DNA of 64,000 nucleotides from Pseudomonas orientalis. Its GTDB lineage: Bacteria; Pseudomonadota; Gammaproteobacteria; Pseudomonadales; Pseudomonadaceae. Below, piece by piece: positions 36,737-46,319 of this stretch. How positions within the stretch are numbered: position 1 is the stretch's first letter; the number at the start of each line of letters is the position of its first letter. The DNA is taken from assembly GCF_022807995.1 (NCBI RefSeq), contig NZ_CP094351.1:432501-496500 (forward strand). Reading direction: 5' to 3'. A program made the translations under genes and the position numbers. The notes under the pieces are model-generated. The model searched no databases. It was not told the DNA's origin and saw nothing but the letters and a program-made list of their open reading frames with translations.

Positions 36737-39202
36737 TTAGAAGAGGTCGATCGGCGCGCCTTCATCCGCCGGCAGCGGGCTGCCCGGTACAGCTCCGTTG
36801 CCCAGCTCGTTGACCGACGGCGGCGTGTCTTCGCTCTTGAACAGCTCGAAGTACGCGTTTGGCGTGCTTGGCGAGGCCGCGCGGCCACTGACCGGGTCGA
36901 TGCGCAGGCTGAGGATGCCTTCCGGTTCCGGCTGGGTGTGCAATGGCTTGTCCTTCAATGCCGCGCCCATGTAGCTCATCCAGATCGGCAGCGCCACGGT
37001 GCCGCCGAATTCGCGACGACCCAGGCTTTCCGGCTGGTCGTAACCGGTCCATACGGTGGTCACGTAGTCGCCGTTGTAGCCGGAGAACCAGGCATCCTTG
37101 GATTCGTTGGTGGTACCGGTCTTGCCTGCTATGTCCGCACGGCCCAGGGCCAATGCGCGCCGGCCGGTGCCCTTCTTGATCACGTCTTGCAGGATGCTGT
37201 TGAGGATATAGGTGGTGCGCCCATCCACGATGCGCTCGGCCACCGCCGGTGCCTGTGGCTCGCCCGGAGCCGGAGCGTTTGCGGCAGGCGTTGCGCCTGG
37301 CGTCGGCTCGATGGTGATGCCGCCGTTACTCGGCGCGGCGAGGCCATCGGTTGCCGCCACGCCATTGACCACATCGCCGGGTACCCGTGGCGGGTTGGCG
37401 GTGAACAGTGTGTCGCCGTTGCGGCTTTCAATCTTGTCGATCAGGTACGGAGAGATCTTGTAGCCGCCGTTGGCAAAGGTGCTCCAGCCAGTGGCAATTT
37501 CCATCGGCGTGAGGGTCGCAGTGCCCAAGGCCAGGGACAGATTCGGCGGCAGATCAGACTTGGCGAAGCCGAAGCGGGTCATGTAGTCGATGGTCTTGCC
37601 CACGCCCATCGCCTGCAGCAGGCGGATCGACACCAGGTTGCGCGATTTGTACAGCGCCTCGCGGATGCGGATCGGACCGAGGAAGGTGTTGGTGTCGTTC
37701 TTCGGACGCCAGACCTTGTCCAGGTACTCATCGACGAACACGATCGGCGCATCGTTGACCAGGCTGGCGGCGGTATAGCCGTTATCCAGCGCGGCGCTGT
37801 AGACGAACGGCTTGAAGCTCGAGCCCGGCTGGCGCTTGGCCTGGGTGGCGCGGTTGTAGTTGCTCTGCTCGAAGGCGAAGCCGCCGACCAGGGCGCGGAT
37901 TGCACCATTTTGCGGGTCGAGGGACACCAGTGCGCCCTGGGCGACCGGTACCTGGCTGAATTTCAGGTTGTCATCGGCCTGGCGTTGCACGCGGATCAAA
38001 TCACCCACCTGTGCCACGTCGGACGGTTGCTTGGGCATCGGGCCCATGCTGTTGGTATTCAGGAATGGACGTGCCCATTTCATGCTGTCCCACGCCACAT
38101 GCGCCTCGCCGGTGCGGGTCAGTACTTGCACGCCATCTTTGTTGACCTGGGTGACGATAGCCGGCTCCAGGCCACTGATCGAGCGTTGTTTGCCCAACTC
38201 GGTGGTCCAGGCGCTCAGGGTCTTGCCCGGCAGACGCGATTCAGGGCCGCGATAGCCGTGACGCTGGTCATAGGTGACCAGGCCATCGTGCAGCGAATGA
38301 TTGGCAATTTCCTGCAAGTTGCTTGGAACGGTGGTGGTAACGCGGAAACCTTCGGTGTAGGCCTCGCTGCCATACCGGCCAACCATTTCAGCGCGGGCCA
38401 TTTCGGCGATATAGGGTGCATTCACTTCCGGCGTTGGCACGTGATAGCTGGCATTCAGTGGTTCGGCCACGGCGCTCTCGTAGGCGGTCTGGTCGATCTT
38501 GCCGAGCTTGTACATGCGCCCCAGGATCCAGTCGCGACGCTCCTTGCTGCGCGCCGGGTTGGCCAGCGGGTTGAAGCGCGACGGCGCCTTGGGCAGGCCG
38601 GCAATCATCGCCATTTGCGCAAGGCTCGCATCACGAATCGACTTGCCGTAGTACACCTGCGACGCCGCCTCGATCCCGTAGGCGCGGTTGCCCAGGTAAA
38701 TCTTGTTGACGTAGAGCTCAAGGATTTCGTCCTTGGTCAACTGGCGTTCGATCTGCAGCGCCAGCAGGATTTCGGTGGCTTTACGCGAAAAACTGCGCTC
38801 GCTGGTGAGGAAGAAGTTCTTCGCCACCTGCATGGTGATGGTGCTGCCGCCGGATTGAATGTGTCCGCTTTTTACCAACTGCGTGGCTGCGCGCACCAGA
38901 CTGCTGGGGTCGACGCCATAGTGGTTGGCGAAATTATCGTCTTCGGCCGACAGCAATGCGTTAATGAAATTGGGCGGAATGTCGGCGAAACGGATCGGTG
39001 TACGGCGCATTTCGCCGAACTCCGCGATCAGTTTTTCATCGCTGCTGTAGACCCGCAAAGGAATCTGCAACTGGATACTTCTGAGGGCCTCTACCGACGG
39101 CAAACCCGGACTAAGGTAGAGGTAGGCCCCGCTGAGTACGAGCAGCAGCCCGCAGACGATCGCGACAATGGAGTACCCGAAAAACTTCAGCAGACGAATC
39201 AA
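36737..39202 (-). CDS. mrcA: Penicillin-binding protein 1A (bifunctional transglycosylase/transpeptidase)
   Basis: Class A PBP (also called PonA) that polymerises and cross-links peptidoglycan. The start is TTG 39202 (IRLLKFFGYSIVAIVCG), giving 821 residues; no better ATG exists near the expected N-terminus. One N-terminal span (about residues 8-30) is followed by the GT51 domain (SAEDDNFANHYGVD, GGSTITMQVAKNFFL), a linker/OB region, and the transpeptidase with the active-site Ser in GSSFKP, SRN in KSRNLVS, and KTGTT near residue 700. The two C-terminal thirds carry a Pro/Ala-rich insertion. Divergent from pilM. Confidence 0.95.
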   Translation of the reverse strand: MIRLLKFFGYSIVAIVCGLLLVLSGAYLYLSPGLPSVEALRSIQLQIPLRVYSSDEKLIAEFGEMRRTPIRFADIPPNFINALLSAEDDNFANHYGVDPSSLVRAATQLVKSGHIQSGGSTITMQVAKNFFLTSERSFSRKATEILLALQIERQLTKDEILELYVNKIYLGNRAYGIEAASQVYYGKSIRDASLAQMAMIAGLPKAPSRFNPLANPARSKERRDWILGRMYKLGKIDQTAYESAVAEPLNASYHVPTPEVNAPYIAEMARAEMVGRYGSEAYTEGFRVTTTVPSNLQEIANHSLHDGLVTYDQRHGYRGPESRLPGKTLSAWTTELGKQRSISGLEPAIVTQVNKDGVQVLTRTGEAHVAWDSMKWARPFLNTNSMGPMPKQPSDVAQVGDLIRVQRQADDNLKFSQVPVAQGALVSLDPQNGAIRALVGGFAFEQSNYNRATQAKRQPGSSFKPFVYSAALDNGYTAASLVNDAPIVFVDEYLDKVWRPKNDTNTFLGPIRIREALYKSRNLVSIRLLQAMGVGKTIDYMTRFGFAKSDLPPNLSLALGTATLTPMEIATGWSTFANGGYKISPYLIDKIESRNGDTLFTANPPRVPGDVVNGVAATDGLAAPSNGGITIEPTPGATPAANAPAPGEPQAPAVAERIVDGRTTYILNSILQDVIKKGTGRRALALGRADIAGKTGTTNESKDAWFSGYNGDYVTTVWTGYDQPESLGRREFGGTVALPIWMSYMGAALKDKPLHTQPEPEGILSLRIDPVSGRAASPSTPNAYFELFKSEDTPPSVNELGNGAVPGSPLPADEGAPIDLF

Positions 39203-39417: not shown

Positions 39418-40074
39418 ATGGAAAAGGGATTTTTCAGGCGCAAACACGACATCCTCCTCGGCGTTGACATCAACGACCAAGGTATCAAACTGATCGAACT
39501 GGGCCGTTCGGCGCAGGGTTTCAGCATTGAGGGCTGTGTCACGCAGTGCCTGCCGGCGCAGGCGGTGGTCGACGGCACAGTGCTCGACCTCGAAGGCGCG
39601 GGGCGGGCGCTGCAGCAGGCATTGTCGCGGCTGCGTAGCCGCGCCAGGCAGGCAGCCGTGGCGGTATCCGGCCCATCGGTGATTACGCGGGTGATTGAAA
39701 TGGATGCAGGCCTCAGCGACGAGGAAATGGCCTGGCAGATACAAATGGAGGCCGACCAGTACATTCCATACCCTTTGGATGAGGTCGCCATCGATTTCCA
39801 GGTGCGCGGCCCGTCACCCCAGGGAGCGGGGCGGGTCGAGGTATCGTTGGCCGCGTGCCTGCGCCAGCAGGTCGAGGCGCGCGAGGCGGTCCTGGGCCTG
39901 GCGGGGCTGGTGACGCGGGTGGTGGATGTCGAAGCATTTGCATTGGAGCGCGCTTGCCGTCAGGATTTTGCCAGCTTCACGCCAGGTCATCGAGTCGATG
40001 GCGCACAATGGGCCGTCGATGCCCACGGGATGGGAGTGGCTTGCGGTTTGGCCCTGAGGAGTTTCGCTGGATGA
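39418..40074 (+). CDS. pilM: PilM-like protein, internally shortened
   Basis: In type IV pilus systems PilM is a cytoplasmic actin-like ATPase that binds the N-terminus of PilN. ATG at 39418 follows CAGGGAGTTTT and gives 218 residues, against about 354 for canonical PilM. Residues 1-177 align with the normal first half (GVDINDQGIKLIELG, AVSGPSVITRVIEMDA, EADQYIPYPLDEVAIDF, VTRVVDVEAFALERA). The protein then jumps to a tail GVACGLALRSFAG that matches the normal C-terminus. The missing block of about 130 residues contains the phosphate-2 and adenosine-binding motifs, so ATP binding is unlikely. The frame is intact, not shifted. Its stop overlaps pilN (ATGA). Confidence 0.88.
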   Translation: MEKGFFRRKHDILLGVDINDQGIKLIELGRSAQGFSIEGCVTQCLPAQAVVDGTVLDLEGAGRALQQALSRLRSRARQAAVAVSGPSVITRVIEMDAGLSDEEMAWQIQMEADQYIPYPLDEVAIDFQVRGPSPQGAGRVEVSLAACLRQQVEAREAVLGLAGLVTRVVDVEAFALERACRQDFASFTPGHRVDGAQWAVDAHGMGVACGLALRSFAG

Positions 40075-40622
40075 CACGAATCAATCTTATGCCCTGGCGC
40101 CGGGCGCTGGCGGAGCGGCGTCGCAAGTATTTCCTTGGGCTTCTGCTGGCGTTCGCCTGCCTCGCGCTCGCGGCGGTGTGGCTGGCCGATCAAGTGATCG
40201 ACCAGGCGATAGACCGGCAGGTAACCCGCAACGTGCGCCTGGACGGGAATGTCGCCGAGCATGACTCACGGATCAAGACCATCGACGACCTGCAGGAACG
40301 AAGCCAGCAATTGGCGCAGCGCATGAAGGTGATGCAGGATCTGCACGACGCTCGCTCTTCCGGCGCCAGGCTGTTCGATCAGTTGGCTCGCGCGATGCCC
40401 GATGGCGTTCACCTGCATGAGGTGGTCGCGAACGGCGATACGCTCAGCATCCGTGGCAGTGCGGACAGCAACCAGGATATCGCCCAGTTGATGCGTGGGT
40501 TGGAGGCGTCGCAAGGCGGCCATTCCGCGCGGCTCGAACGTGTTCAGACAGGCGGTGAGCGCGGCGATCATCAGTTTCAGTTGATGGTGCGCCAGGGGGA
40601 AACCATCGAGGCGCAGCCGTGA
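40071..40622 (+). CDS. pilN: Type IV pilus/DNA-uptake assembly protein PilN
   Basis: Bitopic inner-membrane protein. ATG at 40071 gives 183 residues beginning MTRINLMPWRRALAERRRK: the INLxPWR motif that docks into PilM is retained. One span lies at about residues 22-42 (FLGLLLAFACLALAAVWLA), then a coiled coil and a ferredoxin-like periplasmic domain ending in QFQLMVRQ. Length is near normal. It overlaps pilM and the pilO-pilP gene by 4 bases each. Confidence 0.92.
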   Translation: MTRINLMPWRRALAERRRKYFLGLLLAFACLALAAVWLADQVIDQAIDRQVTRNVRLDGNVAEHDSRIKTIDDLQERSQQLAQRMKVMQDLHDARSSGARLFDQLARAMPDGVHLHEVVANGDTLSIRGSADSNQDIAQLMRGLEASQGGHSARLERVQTGGERGDHQFQLMVRQGETIEAQP

Positions 40623-41590
40623 GCCTGTCCAGGCTCGACTTTTCCGCACTCTCCTACAACGCTGCAAAATGGCCCTGGCCTGCAAGGGTCCTGCTTGGCT
40701 GCGCGCTGGGCGGCCTGGTGCTGTTGGTAGGGGAGGTGTCGTACCTTGGGACTGCGCGGGAGCGACTGCACGGGTTGGAGGCGCGGGAACAGGTACTGCG
40801 CGAGCAGCTTGAAGAGAAAGCCCGTGTGGCCGCCGACCTTGAGGTTTACGCCGAGCACGTCAGGGTGCTGGAAGAGACCGTCGCGGATCTCCAGGGACAG
40901 TTGTCCGGTGACTCGGCAGTGCCGGCCTTGCTCGAAGACATCGCCCGGCTGGCGGTTGCCAAGGGCGTATGGGTCGAAGGCATCGCAGTGTTGGATGAGG
41001 CGCCGCAGTCGTTCCATATCGAGCAACCTTTGAAGATTGACGTGACAGGGGCCTATCACGACCTGGCGGCGTTCGTCAGTGCCCTGGGTAGCTTGCGGCC
41101 TATCGTCACGGTGCATGACCTGGCGTTGCGGCCCGAGGGGGCTTTGTTGCGTCTTGACCTGCTTGCCAAGACCTATCGAAGTGCGTCCCGCGAGGCCCGC
41201 GCGCCACAGACGGTCGTCCAGGGGCCGCGCTTTGTTTATGACTCAGCGTCCTTGCGCGACCCGTTTCAACTCAAGGCCTTGCAGCCGGAGCACACGCCTG
41301 GGCGGCCCGCCCTTGCTCCGGATCCCACGCGGCCCCGTGGGGTGCTGGAGGGCATCGCAATCGACCGGTTCGACATGGTTGGTACGCTGTCGGGCGGCGG
41401 GCAAAGCTTCGCATTGTTGCGTGCCGGATCAACGGTGTATCGGCTGGCGGTCGGCGACTACCTCGGGCCGGATCACGGTCAGGTCACGTCCATTCAAGAC
41501 AGTCATGTGGAACTGCTCGAGCGCTTTCCCGATGAAAGGGGCATCTGGCTGGAGCGCCCGCGAACCCTGGTATTGAACGTCAACTCATAA
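40619..41590 (+). CDS. pilO: PilO-PilP fusion protein
   Basis: GTG at 40619 opens a 323-residue protein. Residues 1-190 are PilO-like: a span at about 22-42, coiled coil (ERLHGLEAREQVLREQLEEKARVAADLEVY) and a ferredoxin-like fold. Residues 205-323 are PilP-like: FVYDSASLRDPFQ corresponds to the FxYxxxxLRxPF entry of PilP, followed by its beta domain (GVLEGIAIDRFDMVGTL, YRLAVGDYLGPDHGQV, WLERPRTLVL). Normal PilP is a separate lipoprotein; here there is no stop, no second start and no lipobox between the parts. It ends 12 bases before pilQ. Confidence 0.88.
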   Translation: MSLSRLDFSALSYNAAKWPWPARVLLGCALGGLVLLVGEVSYLGTARERLHGLEAREQVLREQLEEKARVAADLEVYAEHVRVLEETVADLQGQLSGDSAVPALLEDIARLAVAKGVWVEGIAVLDEAPQSFHIEQPLKIDVTGAYHDLAAFVSALGSLRPIVTVHDLALRPEGALLRLDLLAKTYRSASREARAPQTVVQGPRFVYDSASLRDPFQLKALQPEHTPGRPALAPDPTRPRGVLEGIAIDRFDMVGTLSGGGQSFALLRAGSTVYRLAVGDYLGPDHGQVTSIQDSHVELLERFPDERGIWLERPRTLVLNVNS

Positions 41591-41602
41591 CGGAATCAAA
41601 CA

Positions 41603-42985
41603 ATGAAAAGGATTTTCTCGTCCTTCGGTGTGGCGCTATGGATAGCGTTCACGGCACCGATGGCTGCCGCTGTACCCAATCGCGTCGACCTTATCCATCT
41701 GCCGCCGCCCGAAAGTAAGCCATTGGCCAGCTATACGGGCGACAAACTGAACCTTAATTTCCAGAACATCGAATTGCGCGCGGCATTGCAGCAAATCGCC
41801 GACGTCGCGGGCCTGAACCTGGTGGCCGGTGACGAGGTACAGGGTTCGATCACCCTGCGGCTCAAGGACGTGCCCTGGGACCAGGCACTGGACCTGGTGT
41901 TGCAAGCCAAGGGGCTGGACAAGCGGGTGAAGGCCGGCGTCTTGCTGGTGGCCCCCGCCGATGAATTGGCCGCACGCGAATTGCTGACGCTGGAGGCGCG
42001 CAAGCAGATGGCTGAGCTGGCGCCGTTACGCCGTGAGTTGCTGCAGGTCAATTACGCCAAGGCGGCGGACCTGGCCAAGCTGTTCCAGTCCGTGACCGGC
42101 TTTGAAGGCGCGACCGACGAGCGCGGCTCGGTGGCGGTGGATGACCGTACCAACAATATCATCGCCTACCAGACCGCAGAGCGCCTGGAAGAACTGCGGC
42201 GGATCGTGGCGCAACTGGACGTCCCGGTACGCCAGGTGATGATCGAGGCGCGCATTGTAGAGGCCAATGTCGATTACGACAAAAGCCTGGGGGTGCGTTG
42301 GGGCGGCCGGCTCCATCGCGGCAATTGGGGCGCCGGGGGAATTTCCAAACCATTGGCAGACGGTGCTCAGCCCGCACAGGGCCCGCCCAGCTCACCCTTT
42401 GTCGACCTGGGCTCGCTGACCGGCACCTCCGGCCTGGGTCTGGCCTTTATCACCGACAACCTGTTGCTGGACCTTGAGCTGACCGCCATGGAAAAGTCCG
42501 GCAACGGCGAAATCGTCTCACAGCCCAAGGTGGTCACCTCGGACAAGGAAACCGCGCGCATCCTCAAGGGCACCGAGATTCCCTATCAGGAATCCACGTC
42601 CCAGGGCGCCACCTCGGTGTCGTTCAAGGAAGCCTCGCTGTCATTGGAGGTTACACCGCAGATCACCCCCGACGATCATGTGATCATGGTGGTCAAAGTC
42701 ACCAAGGACGAGCCCGACTACCTGAACAAACTCAACGACGTTCCGCCGATCAAGAAAAACGAGGTCAACGCCAAGGTCCTGGTCAAGAATGGCGAGACCA
42801 TTGTCATCGGCGGGGTTTTCTCCAATACCCAAAGCAAAGTGGTAGATAAAGTGCCATTTTTGGGCGATGTGCCGTATCTTGGCCGCCTTTTCCGGCGCGA
42901 TGTGCGGGCGGAGAAAAAATCCGAGCTGCTGGTATTCCTGACTCCGCGTATCATGAATAACCAGGCGATTGCTGCGAGTCGTTGA
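41603..42985 (+). CDS. pilQ: Short secretin PilQ (lacks AMIN domains)
   Basis: Outer-membrane secretin with signal peptide (residues 1-23, ending PMAAAV). Only a short linker precedes the N0/STN domain ([31 protein letters not shown]), then the N1 domain ([20 protein letters not shown]) and the secretin core ([76 protein letters not shown]). At 460 residues it is about 250 shorter than canonical PilQ: the N-terminal AMIN peptidoglycan-binding domains are missing, as in HofQ/ComE-type secretins. AroK starts 4 bases after the stop. Confidence 0.9.
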
Positions 42986-42989
42986 TTCT

Positions 42990-43508
42990 GTGCGAAATTT
43001 GATTCTTGTAGGGCCGATGGGGGCTGGAAAAAGCACCATCGGCCGTTTGCTGGCCAAAGAGCTGCGCCTGCCGTTCAAAGATTCCGATAAGGAAATTGAA
43101 TTGCGCACGGGTGCCAATATCCCATGGATCTTCGATAAGGAAGGTGAACTGGGCTTTCGCGACCGCGAGCAGGCAATGATTGCCGAACTGTGCGGCTGCG
43201 ATGGCGTGGTATTGGCCACCGGTGGTGGCGCGGTGATGCGCGACGAAAATCGCCGCGCTCTGCATGCCGGCGGTCGGGTGGTGTATCTGCATGCCTCGGT
43301 TGAGCAGCAGGTGGGCCGCACCGCCCGTGATCGCAATCGCCCGCTGCTGCGCACGGCCAACCCGGAGAAAACCCTGCGGGACCTGCTTTCGCTGCGCGAT
43401 CCGCTGTATCGGGAGATCGCCGATCTGGTGGTGGAAACCGATGAACGGCCACCTCGAATGGTGGTACTCGATATTCTTGAGCGCCTGCAACGGCTACCGC
43501 CCCGTTAA
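42990..43508 (+). CDS. aroK: Shikimate kinase AroK
   Basis: Phosphorylates shikimate in the aromatic amino acid pathway. I take GTG at 42990, giving 172 residues starting [22 protein letters not shown]; an earlier TTG at 42969 lies inside pilQ. P-loop GPMGAGKST, shikimate-binding DSDKEIE and the GGGAV and RDRNRPLL motifs are present. It follows pilQ by 4 bases and precedes aroB, the next shikimate enzyme encoded in the cluster. Confidence 0.95.
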
Positions 43509-43633
43509 AGCCTGGCCGCAAATGCGCTATTCTCGGCGGCGCGCCATGACCTTGCGAGGTGTGGCGTAGAGTTATCAGGCAACGTCTGATTCAGGCGTTA
43601 CCGGTTGTCACTACATCTTCAACGCGGGGACAC

Positions 43634-44734
43634 ATGCAGACACTTAAGGTCGATCTAGGCGAGCGCAGCTACCCGATTCATATTGGCGAAGGTCTGTTGG
43701 ACCTGCCCGAGCTGCTTGCGCCGCATATTGCCGGTCGGCAAGTGGCGATCATCTCCAACGAAACAGTGGCGCCGCTGTATCTTGAGCGTCTGAGCCGCAG
43801 CCTGGCGGCGTACTCGGTGATCTCCGTTATCCTGCCCGACGGCGAAGCTCACAAGAACTGGGAAACCCTGCAACTGATCTTCGATGGCTTGCTGAGCGCA
43901 CGGCATGACCGCCGCACCACCGTGGTCGCCCTGGGCGGCGGTGTGATCGGCGACATGGCCGGCTTTGCGGCCGCCTGTTACCAGCGTGGCGTGGACTTCA
44001 TCCAGGTGCCGACCACGCTGCTGTCCCAGGTCGATTCGTCGGTGGGCGGCAAGACCGGCATCAACCATCCGCTGGGCAAGAACATGGTCGGCGCGTTCTA
44101 TCAGCCCCAGGCCGTGCTGATCGACACCGCGACCCTCAACACCCTGCCACCGCGCGAACTGTCGGCAGGGCTGGCGGAAGTCATCAAATACGGGCTGATC
44201 TGCGACGAGCCCTTTCTGACCTGGCTGGAAGAACACATGGACGCCCTGCGCGCCCTCGACCAGGTGGCACTCACCGAAGCCATTTCCCGCTCCTGCGCGG
44301 CCAAGGCCCTGGTGGTGAATGCCGACGAACGGGAGTCCGGGGTGCGGGCTACCCTGAACCTGGGCCATACCTTCGGCCATGCGATCGAAACCCACATGGG
44401 CTATGGTGTGTGGCTGCATGGGGAAGCCGTCGCGGCTGGCACTGTGATGGCATTGGACATGTCGCAGCGCCTGGGCTGGATCAGCGCCCAGGAGCGTGAT
44501 CGCGGTATCCGTCTGTTCCAGCGCGCCGGTCTGCCGGTGATCCCGCCGTCTGAAATGACCGAGGCGGATTTCCTGGAGCACATGGCAATAGACAAGAAAG
44601 TGATCGACGGTCGGCTGCGGCTGGTGCTGTTGCGCCACATGGGCGAAGCGGTGGTGACCGACGATTATCCGAAAGAGATTTTACAGGCCACGCTGGGAGC
44701 GGATTACCGCGCCCTGGCCCAGCTTAAAGGTTAA
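43634..44734 (+). CDS. aroB: 3-dehydroquinate synthase AroB
   Basis: Converts DAHP to 3-dehydroquinate, NAD- and zinc/cobalt-dependent. ATG at 43634 (after GGGGACAC) gives 366 residues. Visible motifs: [48 protein letters not shown], and metal ligands in [20 protein letters not shown] and [11 protein letters not shown] 125-base gap separates it from aroK; damX follows after 10 bases. Confidence 0.96.
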
Positions 44735-44744
44735 TAAGATCCCG

Positions 44745-46319
44745 ATGACTAGTTTGCATGCCGACGAGGCGTTCCTCGGCCATTATCACTTGAGCCATGA
44801 CCCTTTCGCTCCACGGGTGCCTGGCTTCAAATTCTTCCCTGCCCAGCGCAAGCCGGTACTGGGACAATTGCACCATCTCGCGCGCTACAGCCAGTTGCTG
44901 CTGGTGGTCACGGGGCCGTTGGGCAGCGGCAAGACCTTGCTGCGCCAGGCGCTGGTCGCCAGTACCAACAAACAATCGGTGCAGAGTGTCGTGGTCTCGG
45001 CCCGTGGTGCCGGTGATGCGGCCGGCGTGCTGCGCCAGGTGGCGCAGGCGCTGGATGTCGCCAACGCTGAGCCGAACGCGATCCTCAAGCAGGTGGTGCA
45101 ACTGGGCCTGACCGGCCAGGAAGTCTATCTGCTGGTGGATGACGCCGAGCAACTCGACGAGTCCGCCCTGGAAGCGTTGCTGGCGCTGGCGGCGGGTACG
45201 CCGGAAGGGCGTCCCCATGTGTTTCTGTTCGGCGAGTCGTCGCTGATCGCCGATCTGGAACAGATCAGCGGTGATCAGGAACTGTTTCACGTCATCGAAT
45301 TGCAGCCGTACGAAGAAGAAGAAACCCGCGAATACCTGGCTCAGCGCCTCGAGGGCGCGGGGGCCGGTATCGAACTTTTCTCCGCTGCGCAGATCTCTGA
45401 TATTCACGAAAGCTCCGATGGCTGGCCTGGCAACATCAATCAGGTTGCCCGCGATGCAATGATCGAAGCCATGATTGCCAGCCGCTCCGCGGTCAAGCGT
45501 CCAAAGATGGGGTTTACTATGCCTAAGAAGCACGTATTGGCTATTTCCGCCGTTGTCGTGGTCGCTGTTGCCGCCGCCTGGTTGATTCCAGGTCGCAGCA
45601 AGGCGCCGACCACCGCCGGCGCGCCAACCGAACAGGCGCAGTTGCCACTGGGCAAGCCCACGCCGAATGTCGAATTCGCCAATTCCGGCCAACCGACCAA
45701 CCTGCCGATGGTCGGCCAACCTGTCATGCGCGGCCCGCTGGCCGAAGAAGCCGGTGGTATCTCCGAAGGTGACGACGGTGTGCCGGTGGAAGGCTCCAGC
45801 GCCACGCCGCCAACCGTGACCACCACTGCGCCGCCTGCTGGCGTACCGGCCGGCACGCCAGCTACCCCAGTGACGCCCGCCACACCCGTTGCCCCGGCCG
45901 CCAAGCCGACGCCAGCGCCGACGGTTGCCACGGCCAAGCCTGCACCGGTTGCCAAACCAACTCCGGCGCCTACGCCCGCGGCCAAGCCTGCTGAAAAACC
46001 TGCCGCCACCGTCGCCAAGACCGGCGCCGCCGGCAGCAGCTGGTACAGCAGCCAGCCCACCGGTAACTTCGTGGTGCAGATCCTCGGCACCAGCTCCGAG
46101 GCCAACGCCCAGGCGTTCGTCAAAGAGCAGGGCGGCCAGTACCGTTATTTCAAGAAAGTGCTCAACGGCAAGCCGCTCTACGTGATCACCTACGGCAGCT
46201 TCCCAAGCCGCGCCGCAGCCGATTCTGCCATCAAGGCCTTGCCAGCGAAGGTTCAGGCTGGTAAACCTTGGCCTCGCACTGTTGCCAGCGTTCAACAAGA
46301 ACTCGCAACTGCTCGCTGA
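44745..46319 (+). CDS. damX: AAA + SPOR domain protein DamX
   Basis: Membrane protein linked to cell division. The 524-residue product has a cytoplasmic ExeA/DamX-type ATPase domain (Walker A GPLGSGKTLLRQAL near residue 60; Walker B-like VYLLVDDAEQLD), one membrane span at about residues 264-284 (HVLAISAVVVVAVAAAWLI), a long Pro/Ala/Thr-rich periplasmic linker, and a C-terminal SPOR domain (about residues 440-520: FVVQILGTSSEANAQAFVKEQ...YVITYGSFPSRAAADSAIKALP). Its place after aroKB matches other gammaproteobacteria. A GGCGGCC/GGCCGCC hairpin without T-run follows at 46326-46346. Confidence 0.92.
   Translation: MTSLHADEAFLGHYHLSHDPFAPRVPGFKFFPAQRKPVLGQLHHLARYSQLLLVVTGPLGSGKTLLRQALVASTNKQSVQSVVVSARGAGDAAGVLRQVAQALDVANAEPNAILKQVVQLGLTGQEVYLLVDDAEQLDESALEALLALAAGTPEGRPHVFLFGESSLIADLEQISGDQELFHVIELQPYEEEETREYLAQRLEGAGAGIELFSAAQISDIHESSDGWPGNINQVARDAMIEAMIASRSAVKRPKMGFTMPKKHVLAISAVVVVAVAAAWLIPGRSKAPTTAGAPTEQAQLPLGKPTPNVEFANSGQPTNLPMVGQPVMRGPLAEEAGGISEGDDGVPVEGSSATPPTVTTTAPPAGVPAGTPATPVTPATPVAPAAKPTPAPTVATAKPAPVAKPTPAPTPAAKPAEKPAATVAKTGAAGSSWYSSQPTGNFVVQILGTSSEANAQAFVKEQGGQYRYFKKVLNGKPLYVITYGSFPSRAAADSAIKALPAKVQAGKPWPRTVASVQQELATAR

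Follow-up and report, generated by a model that had tools for sequence, protein, structure and literature searches.

The window analysed here is a 64,000-nucleotide (nt) stretch of a 5.85 Mb Pseudomonas genome (G000:C1:432501-496500), and its positions 39418-42985 carry a reduced version of the type IV pilus locus pilMNOPQ. The locus comprises pilM, pilN, a pilO-pilP fusion and pilQ, tightly packed and flanked by ponA on the reverse strand and by aroK-aroB. All four open reading frames (ORFs) are open where a first-pass annotation, made from the sequence alone, had placed them, with 4-nt overlaps at pilM/pilN and pilN/pilOP. The gene order and the synteny ponA-pilMNOPQ-aroK-aroB match the type IVa alignment complex, and every protein of the locus scores above the curated cut-off of its family (Pfam and NCBIfam models). 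The annotation had held that PilM, PilO-PilP and PilQ depart from the canonical complex, and the ORFs, the models and recurrence in relatives all bear this out. By its place and by the models the operon is PilMNOPQ; it lacks several structural features of the canonical complex and may best be described as a reduced variant. The central correlate of this reduction, missed in the first-pass annotation, is the loss of the motor PilB. The features are as follows (aa, amino acids).

39418-40074, + strand: shortened pilM of 218 aa, with subdomains 1A and 1C plus the C-terminal helix but without domain 2 (TIGR01175, PF11104, alignments to full-length PilM)
39958-39996, + strand: internal-deletion junction in pilM, residues ~181-193, CRQDFASFTPGHR (alignments)
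40071-40622, + strand: pilN, 183 aa; ATG overlaps the pilM stop (PF05137; sequence)
40619-41590, + strand: pilO-pilP fusion, 323 aa; GTG start overlaps the pilN stop (PF04350 at 51-187, PF04351 at 187-319; AlphaFold model)
40619-41188, + strand: PilO half, with membrane helix, long helix and ferredoxin-like core (model: helix 20-95, core 101-188)
41189-41293, + strand: flexible linker in place of the PilP lipobox and tether (predicted local distance difference test, pLDDT, < 50 at 191-225; lipobox in the separate PilP of relatives)
41294-41590, + strand: PilP half, the beta domain that meets secretin N0 in canonical machines (Foldseek to PilP 2y4x, template modelling score (target) 0.94)
41603-42985, + strand: pilQ secretin, 460 aa; signal peptide, N0/STN/Secretin_N/Secretin, no AMIN (TIGR02515; Pfam)
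36737-39202, - strand: ponA/mrcA, synteny anchor (ORF; neighbours in relatives 82-96% identical)
42991-43508, + strand: aroK, synteny anchor (ORF; order as in E. coli)
43619-44734, + strand: aroB, synteny anchor (ORF; neighbours in relatives 86-98% identical)

Structure of the Reduced Proteins

The shortened PilM scores 178 bits against TIGR01175 (cut-off 133), and its match to PF11104 is confined to positions 1-168 of 340. Its last ~33 residues align with the C-terminus of full-length proteins (323-355 of 356 in the relative G021; 322-356 of P. aeruginosa PilM, 5eou), and because they do so, the ~140 missing residues must be internal and not C-terminal. A C-terminal truncation is ruled out by the presence of the C-terminal helix. 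The internal loss had been recognized in the first-pass annotation at ~130 residues, a size that the alignments to full-length PilM revise to about 140. Judging from the known fold of PilM and FtsA and from the alignment to P. aeruginosa PilM, the missing stretch probably corresponds to domain 2 (subdomains 2A/2B, the nucleotide-binding half, residues ~183-322 of canonical PilM); a complete actin-like PilM with this domain is not encoded. The AlphaFold model of the short protein (mean pLDDT 69) superposes over ~170 residues on the PilM of the P. aeruginosa PilM:PilN complex. Two further states of pilM were encountered among relatives with a reduced locus. In L022:2564-3811 (G007) and L102:2508-3494 (G118) PilM and PilN lie in one frame, a further fusion, and in L143:5205-5857 (P. 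kitaguniensis MAFF 212408) pilM is apparently frameshifted, with a match length that is no multiple of 3 and a frame open from residue 55, either a real lesion or a sequencing error.

PilN begins MTRINLMPWRR, with the INLMPWR motif retained, and scores 55.8 bits against PF05137 (cut-off 22.8). The fusion matches PilO (97.8 bits, cut-off 22) and PilP (100.8 bits, cut-off 25.6) in a single frame. Its AlphaFold model (pLDDT 79) has a membrane-anchored long helix and a core like those of PilO, followed by a disordered linker at 191-225 and the PilP beta domain, and solved structures of both PilO and PilP were matched. PilP is thus no separate lipoprotein here, occupying the same frame as PilO without a lipobox. 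In P. proteolytica PilO and PilP are separate, and the lipobox (TGC) is still present in PilP; the anchor was therefore lost together with the fusion, a correction to the earlier description. A PilO:PilP ratio of 1:1 is all that follows from the fusion, and not the 1:1 ratio of inner-membrane ring to secretin put forward in the first-pass annotation. PilQ scores 502.8 bits against TIGR02515 (cut-off 284) and contains N0, STN, Secretin_N and Secretin domains; a domain scan found no AMIN domain in its 460 aa, whereas a canonical relative has two.

A sequencing error or single-strain lesion is ruled out, since named species within the P. fluorescens subgroup have the same layout. Downstream of aroB, window positions 44745-46319 encode a DamX-like protein whose C-terminal region is SPOR-like, and the order aroK-aroB-damX is identical in E. 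coli.

Loss of PilB Across Pseudomonas

PilM state and PilB presence were scored by whole-genome searches of 150 Pseudomonas species. PilB accompanies a full PilM in 87 species and a half-length PilM in none; PilB is absent alongside a full PilM in 10 and alongside a half-length PilM in 52, and one species has neither protein, so that PilM is encoded in 149/150 genomes. Among the ten with a full PilM and no PilB, G034 has a split PilB and the genomes of G097 and G102 are incomplete, the others being real intermediates. Since no reduced PilM was found alongside PilB, and PilB is absent from some genomes with a whole PilM, PilB loss is suggested to have come first. The Fisher p-value for this table (p = 2e-30) ignores ancestry and is not usable as a corrected p-value. 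On a tree built from PonA and AroB of 43 species, parsimony gives six changes in PilB, three to short PilQ, two to reduced PilM and two to the PilO-P fusion. Short PilQ and PilB loss coincide in three separate clades, and fusion and PilM reduction in two. The association of PilB loss with remodelling is repeated across clades; the independent events are few (three well-supported contrasts), and an independent-pairs test relating PilB loss to the remaining changes is underpowered.

The absence of PilB is also visible in gene order. In reduced genomes pilA adjoins a divergent pilC-pilD-coaE without pilB, and a PilB-containing genome has pilA-pilBCD-coaE. The window's genome yielded no TIGR02538 match over the cut-off and no PilB between pilA and pilC. 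No PilB was recognized elsewhere in that genome among the remaining motor-family matches examined, which comprised all but one weaker match and are the GspE of a type II secretion system, an ATPase linked to gcvH that PilB-containing genomes also have, and PilT.

The comparison across Pseudomonas that the first-pass annotation had called for shows the reduced layout to be common to multiple species. It recurs in P. fluorescens strains, P. edaphica, P. paracarnis, P. costantinii, P. lactis, P. grimontii, P. poae, P. canadensis and others, and the combination of short PilM and fusion was recorded in G004, G017, G031, G061 and G158 as well as in the window's genome (G000). Canonical genes in close relatives together with further frameshifts in this locus, which the annotation had named as the sign of an error in its reading, were not encountered as a rule. 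A second, separate reduced clade (G003, G007, G009, G015, G024, G025, G079, G094, G152, G164 and others, of which the members with enough flanking sequence were placed on the tree) has a PilM of about 300 aa, fused PilO-PilP and a PilQ of about 410-470 aa.

Between the extremes lie graded loci. G021, G110, G150 and G159 are fully canonical, with a PilM of ~356 aa and a PilQ of ~690 aa (two AMIN domains in G021, the one scanned), and G095 has a PilQ of 573 aa with one AMIN domain. PilM is full-length and diverged in G083 and G093, where PilQ measures 465-477 aa and, in G083, has no AMIN domain. PilM falls to about 315-320 aa in G138 and G154, 227 aa in G128, and 216 aa in G030 and G032, whose PilO and PilP are separate. 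P. proteolytica has short PilM and short PilQ with PilO and PilP still separate, and therefore the fusion came later in the fluorescens line. The loci thus grade from two AMIN domains to one to none, from a PilM of 356 aa through a diverged ~350 and ~315 to 227/218, and from separate to fused PilO and PilP. These intermediates suggest an order of loss in which PilB and PilY1 went first, followed by AMIN, PilM shrinkage and finally PilO-P fusion. Some records call for comment. The locus of P. costantinii LMG 22119 occurs on two contigs of one assembly with equal identity to the query (L132 and L133), a duplication or an assembly artefact. A record named P. syringae PA-4-7F (L139) has a reduced fluorescens-type locus, and one named P. 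putida ASAD (L193) groups with P. reinekei on the tree; both species names look wrong.

Remaining Pilus and DNA-Uptake Genes

The reduced genomes sampled retain pilA, pilC, pilD, pilT, a TfpB-like ATPase, fimT, pilV/W/X/E, comEA and comEC, and are without pilB, pilY1, fimU and a second PilT-family ATPase. Pilin, platform, peptidase, retraction ATPase, secretin, ComEA and ComEC accordingly occur together in one genome. From the set named in the first-pass annotation (pilA, pilBCD, comEA and comEC), pilA, pilC, pilD, comEA and comEC are present and pilB is absent. PilY1 was found in 0/20 genomes without PilB and in 3/3 with it. The minor-pilin locus contains fimT, pilV, pilW and pilX and is without fimU in 10/10 reduced loci; pilE is also present in these loci, except in G003, where none was found within the stretch covered. 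G021, which is without PilB and otherwise canonical, still has fimU. The C-terminal motif of FimT is GRVSLR in the window's species, as in its PilB-containing relative, and GRIR/GRVR in G003/G009. Two minor-pilin regions hold apparent traces of pilY1. In G021 a 143-aa stub with only the last ~81 PilY1 residues (L077:9171-9602) is apparently an early stage of reduction, and in the window's genome PilX (L075:8532-9062; G000:C1 ~868.5-869.1 kb) ends RRVLWRQLQ, resembling the PilY1 C-terminus RRVMWRQIQ of a PilB-containing relative, as if an in-frame deletion of PilY1 had left a scar there.

PilT is retained in all reduced genomes except G009, and a second PilT-family ATPase over the cut-off is absent from 12 reduced genomes and G021. 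A broken PilT in G024 and G025, where a TAG falls inside the match, was ruled out, the codon being an ordinary stop at a slightly shorter C-terminus. ComEA was found in 23/23 and ComEC in 17/17 genomes tested. An MshEN-domain ATPase whose Walker A is intact lies near gcvH in nearly all loci examined, in genomes with and without PilB alike, and in the window's genome it is the sole non-GspE, non-PilT ATPase among the motor-family matches examined; it is the best TfpB candidate. In G009 and G003 (L055 and L056) the match of the TfpB-like ATPase to the PilB model stops at position ~462 of 564, and the G003 protein lacks the GEIRD motif as written, so this motor, too, may be undergoing change. The window's genome also contains a separate cluster for type II secretion with its own GspE-type ATPase.

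A Proposed DNA-Uptake Pilus and its Alternatives

The loss of the motor, the adhesive tip and half of the motor-docking protein, with the DNA-uptake parts kept, suggests that a movement machine has become a DNA-uptake machine more than once. At a probability of roughly 0.58, the locus is read as a type IVa alignment-complex and secretin operon pared down after PilB loss, driven by TfpB and devoted to DNA uptake; without PilB, the nucleotide-binding half of PilM would have become dispensable. More tentatively, and at somewhat less than even odds, PilB loss may repeatedly release one set of changes, in which PilY1 and FimU go, the wall anchor of PilQ and the actin-like half of PilM are lost and PilO and PilP fuse, converging on a TfpB-type pilus for DNA uptake only. 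The first-pass proposal that the locus serves DNA uptake is favored by the retention of FimT, ComEA, ComEC, PilT and the pilins and by the loss of PilB, PilY1 and FimU, with the function itself read from gene content.

Under the DNA-uptake reading, the TfpB-like ATPase would extend a short or intermittently made pilus and PilT would retract it. Pili of Acinetobacter baylyi have two motors, PilB and TfpB, either of which alone supports transformation at a reduced level, and P. fluorescens A506 has no pilB and only tfpB (PMC8213720). FimT at the pilus tip would bind DNA, which ComEA and ComEC would bring in. FimT orthologues including that of P. aeruginosa bind DNA; FimU serves P. aeruginosa twitching and has no DNA binding, except for very weak binding by the Xanthomonas campestris protein (PMC8897410). 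A. baylyi competence needs FimT and not FimU, and in Vibrio cholerae transformation proceeds with no PilY1 homologue present (PMC5542475). The binding site of PilN on PilM is the 1A-1C cleft (PMC7613929), and PilM is also the presumed docking site of PilB (PMC8389850, PMC11656802). Domain 2 of PilM may serve mainly for PilB docking or coupling, and only the 1A/1C half holding the N-terminal peptide of PilN would stay because the other half is not needed without PilB. With PilP fused to PilO, the periplasmic chain would be shorter and the PilO membrane anchor would replace the PilP lipid. More speculatively, the peptidoglycan-binding AMIN domains of the secretin would be lost, along with the PilP lipid, because the pulling load of a whole cell is no longer borne.

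Several observations weigh against this reading. Relaxed selection on PilM and PilO-P is equally expected under slow decay, and pilM of P. kitaguniensis looks frameshifted. The strict FimT motif GRxR is not present in the window's species, and ComEA and ComEC, found in all tested pseudomonads whether or not PilB is present, do not discriminate. No report of transformation, piliation or twitching in reduced strains was found in the literature searched, and A. baylyi competence depends on ComC, its homologue of PilY1, and on PilT as well as PilU (PMC5542475).

The alternative that survives best, unlikely as it is, is slow decay, in which the pilus became non-functional upon PilB loss, its genes are drifting to loss and the deletions seen as fusions and truncations are stages of that process. 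It draws on the facts that every change is a loss, that G009 lacks PilT and that P. kitaguniensis has an apparent pilM frameshift, and also on the ratios of nonsynonymous to synonymous substitution (dN/dS). Pairwise values in the reduced fluorescens clade are 0.07-0.29 for PilM, 0.05-0.17 for PilN, 0.17-0.41 for PilO-P and 0.05-0.13 for PilQ, compared with about 0.02-0.07, 0.01-0.16, 0.01-0.21 and 0.03-0.11, respectively, in canonical loci with PilB, so that PilM, PilN and PilO-P stand 2-8 times higher. All tested machine parts nevertheless remain well below 1, including the TfpB-like ATPase (0.09-0.13), PilA (0.11-0.14) and PilC (0.14-0.21), and selection on the reduced machine is relaxed yet clearly purifying. 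Against decay there are also intact ORFs in dozens of species across deep divergences, the near-universal presence of PilM, PilT frames that only seemed interrupted, the persistence of pilA, pilC, pilD and minor-pilin genes in those reduced genomes that were examined, and the preservation of frame and spacing through two independent fusions. The description of the locus in the first-pass annotation as a selected minimal machine, not decay, is supported by the conserved layout across species and by these dN/dS values, elevated as they are over canonical loci.

It is improbable that the locus builds a short periplasmic pseudopilus, akin to an additional type II secretion system or serving adhesion, and not a surface pilus or a machine for DNA uptake. 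The cytoplasmic GspL of type II secretion is also a shortened PilM-like protein, found among the fold matches of the PilM model, the secretin is short, and TfpB-type motors are as distant from PilB as is GspE (PMC8213720). On the other side, the genome has its separate type II cluster and GspE-type ATPase, PilT, useless in type II secretion, is retained, FimT is kept and FimU lost, and the secretin is PilQ by model (502.8 bits for TIGR02515 versus 228 for GspD, under its cut-off). Similarly improbable is that the changes in PilM, PilO-P and PilQ are lineage accidents causally unlinked to PilB and joined by shared ancestry only, a view to which the few independent events, with a test that cannot reach significance, lend some weight, but against which stand the coincidences in three and two clades and the lack of a half-length PilM in all 87 PilB-containing genomes.

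What nucleotide binding and the second domain contribute to PilM function is a long-standing question in the study of type IV pili. If PilB loss does repeatedly release this one set of changes, PilM would have its nucleotide-binding half for the sake of PilB, and pilus assembly as such would not require it. Nature has deleted that half, with the rest under selection, only where PilB is missing, which makes a direct genetic prediction. Natural transformation of soil and plant pseudomonads is poorly known, and the gene content described here would provide a signature separating a DNA-uptake from a twitching pilus in these bacteria.

Comparison with Known Systems

The canonical type IVa PilMNOPQ of P. 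aeruginosa, P. stutzeri and other pseudomonads has synteny, gene order and model scores over the cut-offs in common with the window locus. It differs in that the window's genome has a PilM without domain 2, fused PilO-P, a PilQ without AMIN and no PilB, PilY1 or FimU; the absence of PilB, the PilY1 tip adhesin and FimU also sets this genome apart from a twitching type IVa system. The model of the Akkermansia Amuc_1101-type PilM-like protein spans PilM-like and PilN-like stretches, as do the PilM-PilN fusions of G007 and G118, but the window protein falls far below its cut-off, and we know of no PilO-PilP fusion in Amuc_1101-type systems.

P. fluorescens A506 (Ellison et al., 2021; PMC8213720) is a published parallel by description, sharing with the window's genome the absence of pilB, the presence of other type IV pilus genes, a TfpB-like motor and, by name, its species group. 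As far as the available part of that account goes, it covers motor content only, and not the reduced PilM, the PilO-P fusion, the loss of AMIN, PilY1 and FimU or the recurrence in clades. The absence of PilB in A506 is thus already published, whereas the literature searched contained no description of the linked, convergent remodelling. That search, which covered few subscription journals, likewise returned no report of a PilO-PilP fusion or a reduced PilM in pseudomonads.

The analogy with HofMNOPQ of E. coli K-12 drawn in the first-pass annotation holds for the place of the locus (mrcA-hofMNOPQ-aroK-aroB) and for the short PilM and PilQ homologues. It fails in that HofO and HofP are separate genes and that HofM (259 aa) keeps a 2A remnant of domain 2, which the window PilM does not, and the window PilQ lies far below the cut-offs of the HofQ models (287.8 versus 554 and 237.7 versus 598 bits). 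The Com/Pil competence pilus of A. baylyi resembles the reduced set in its pilins with FimT, its PilMNOPQ homologues, PilT and a TfpB or TfpB-like motor, and differs from it in that PilB, PilU and ComC, the homologue of PilY1, are present and the PilO and PilP homologues are separate.

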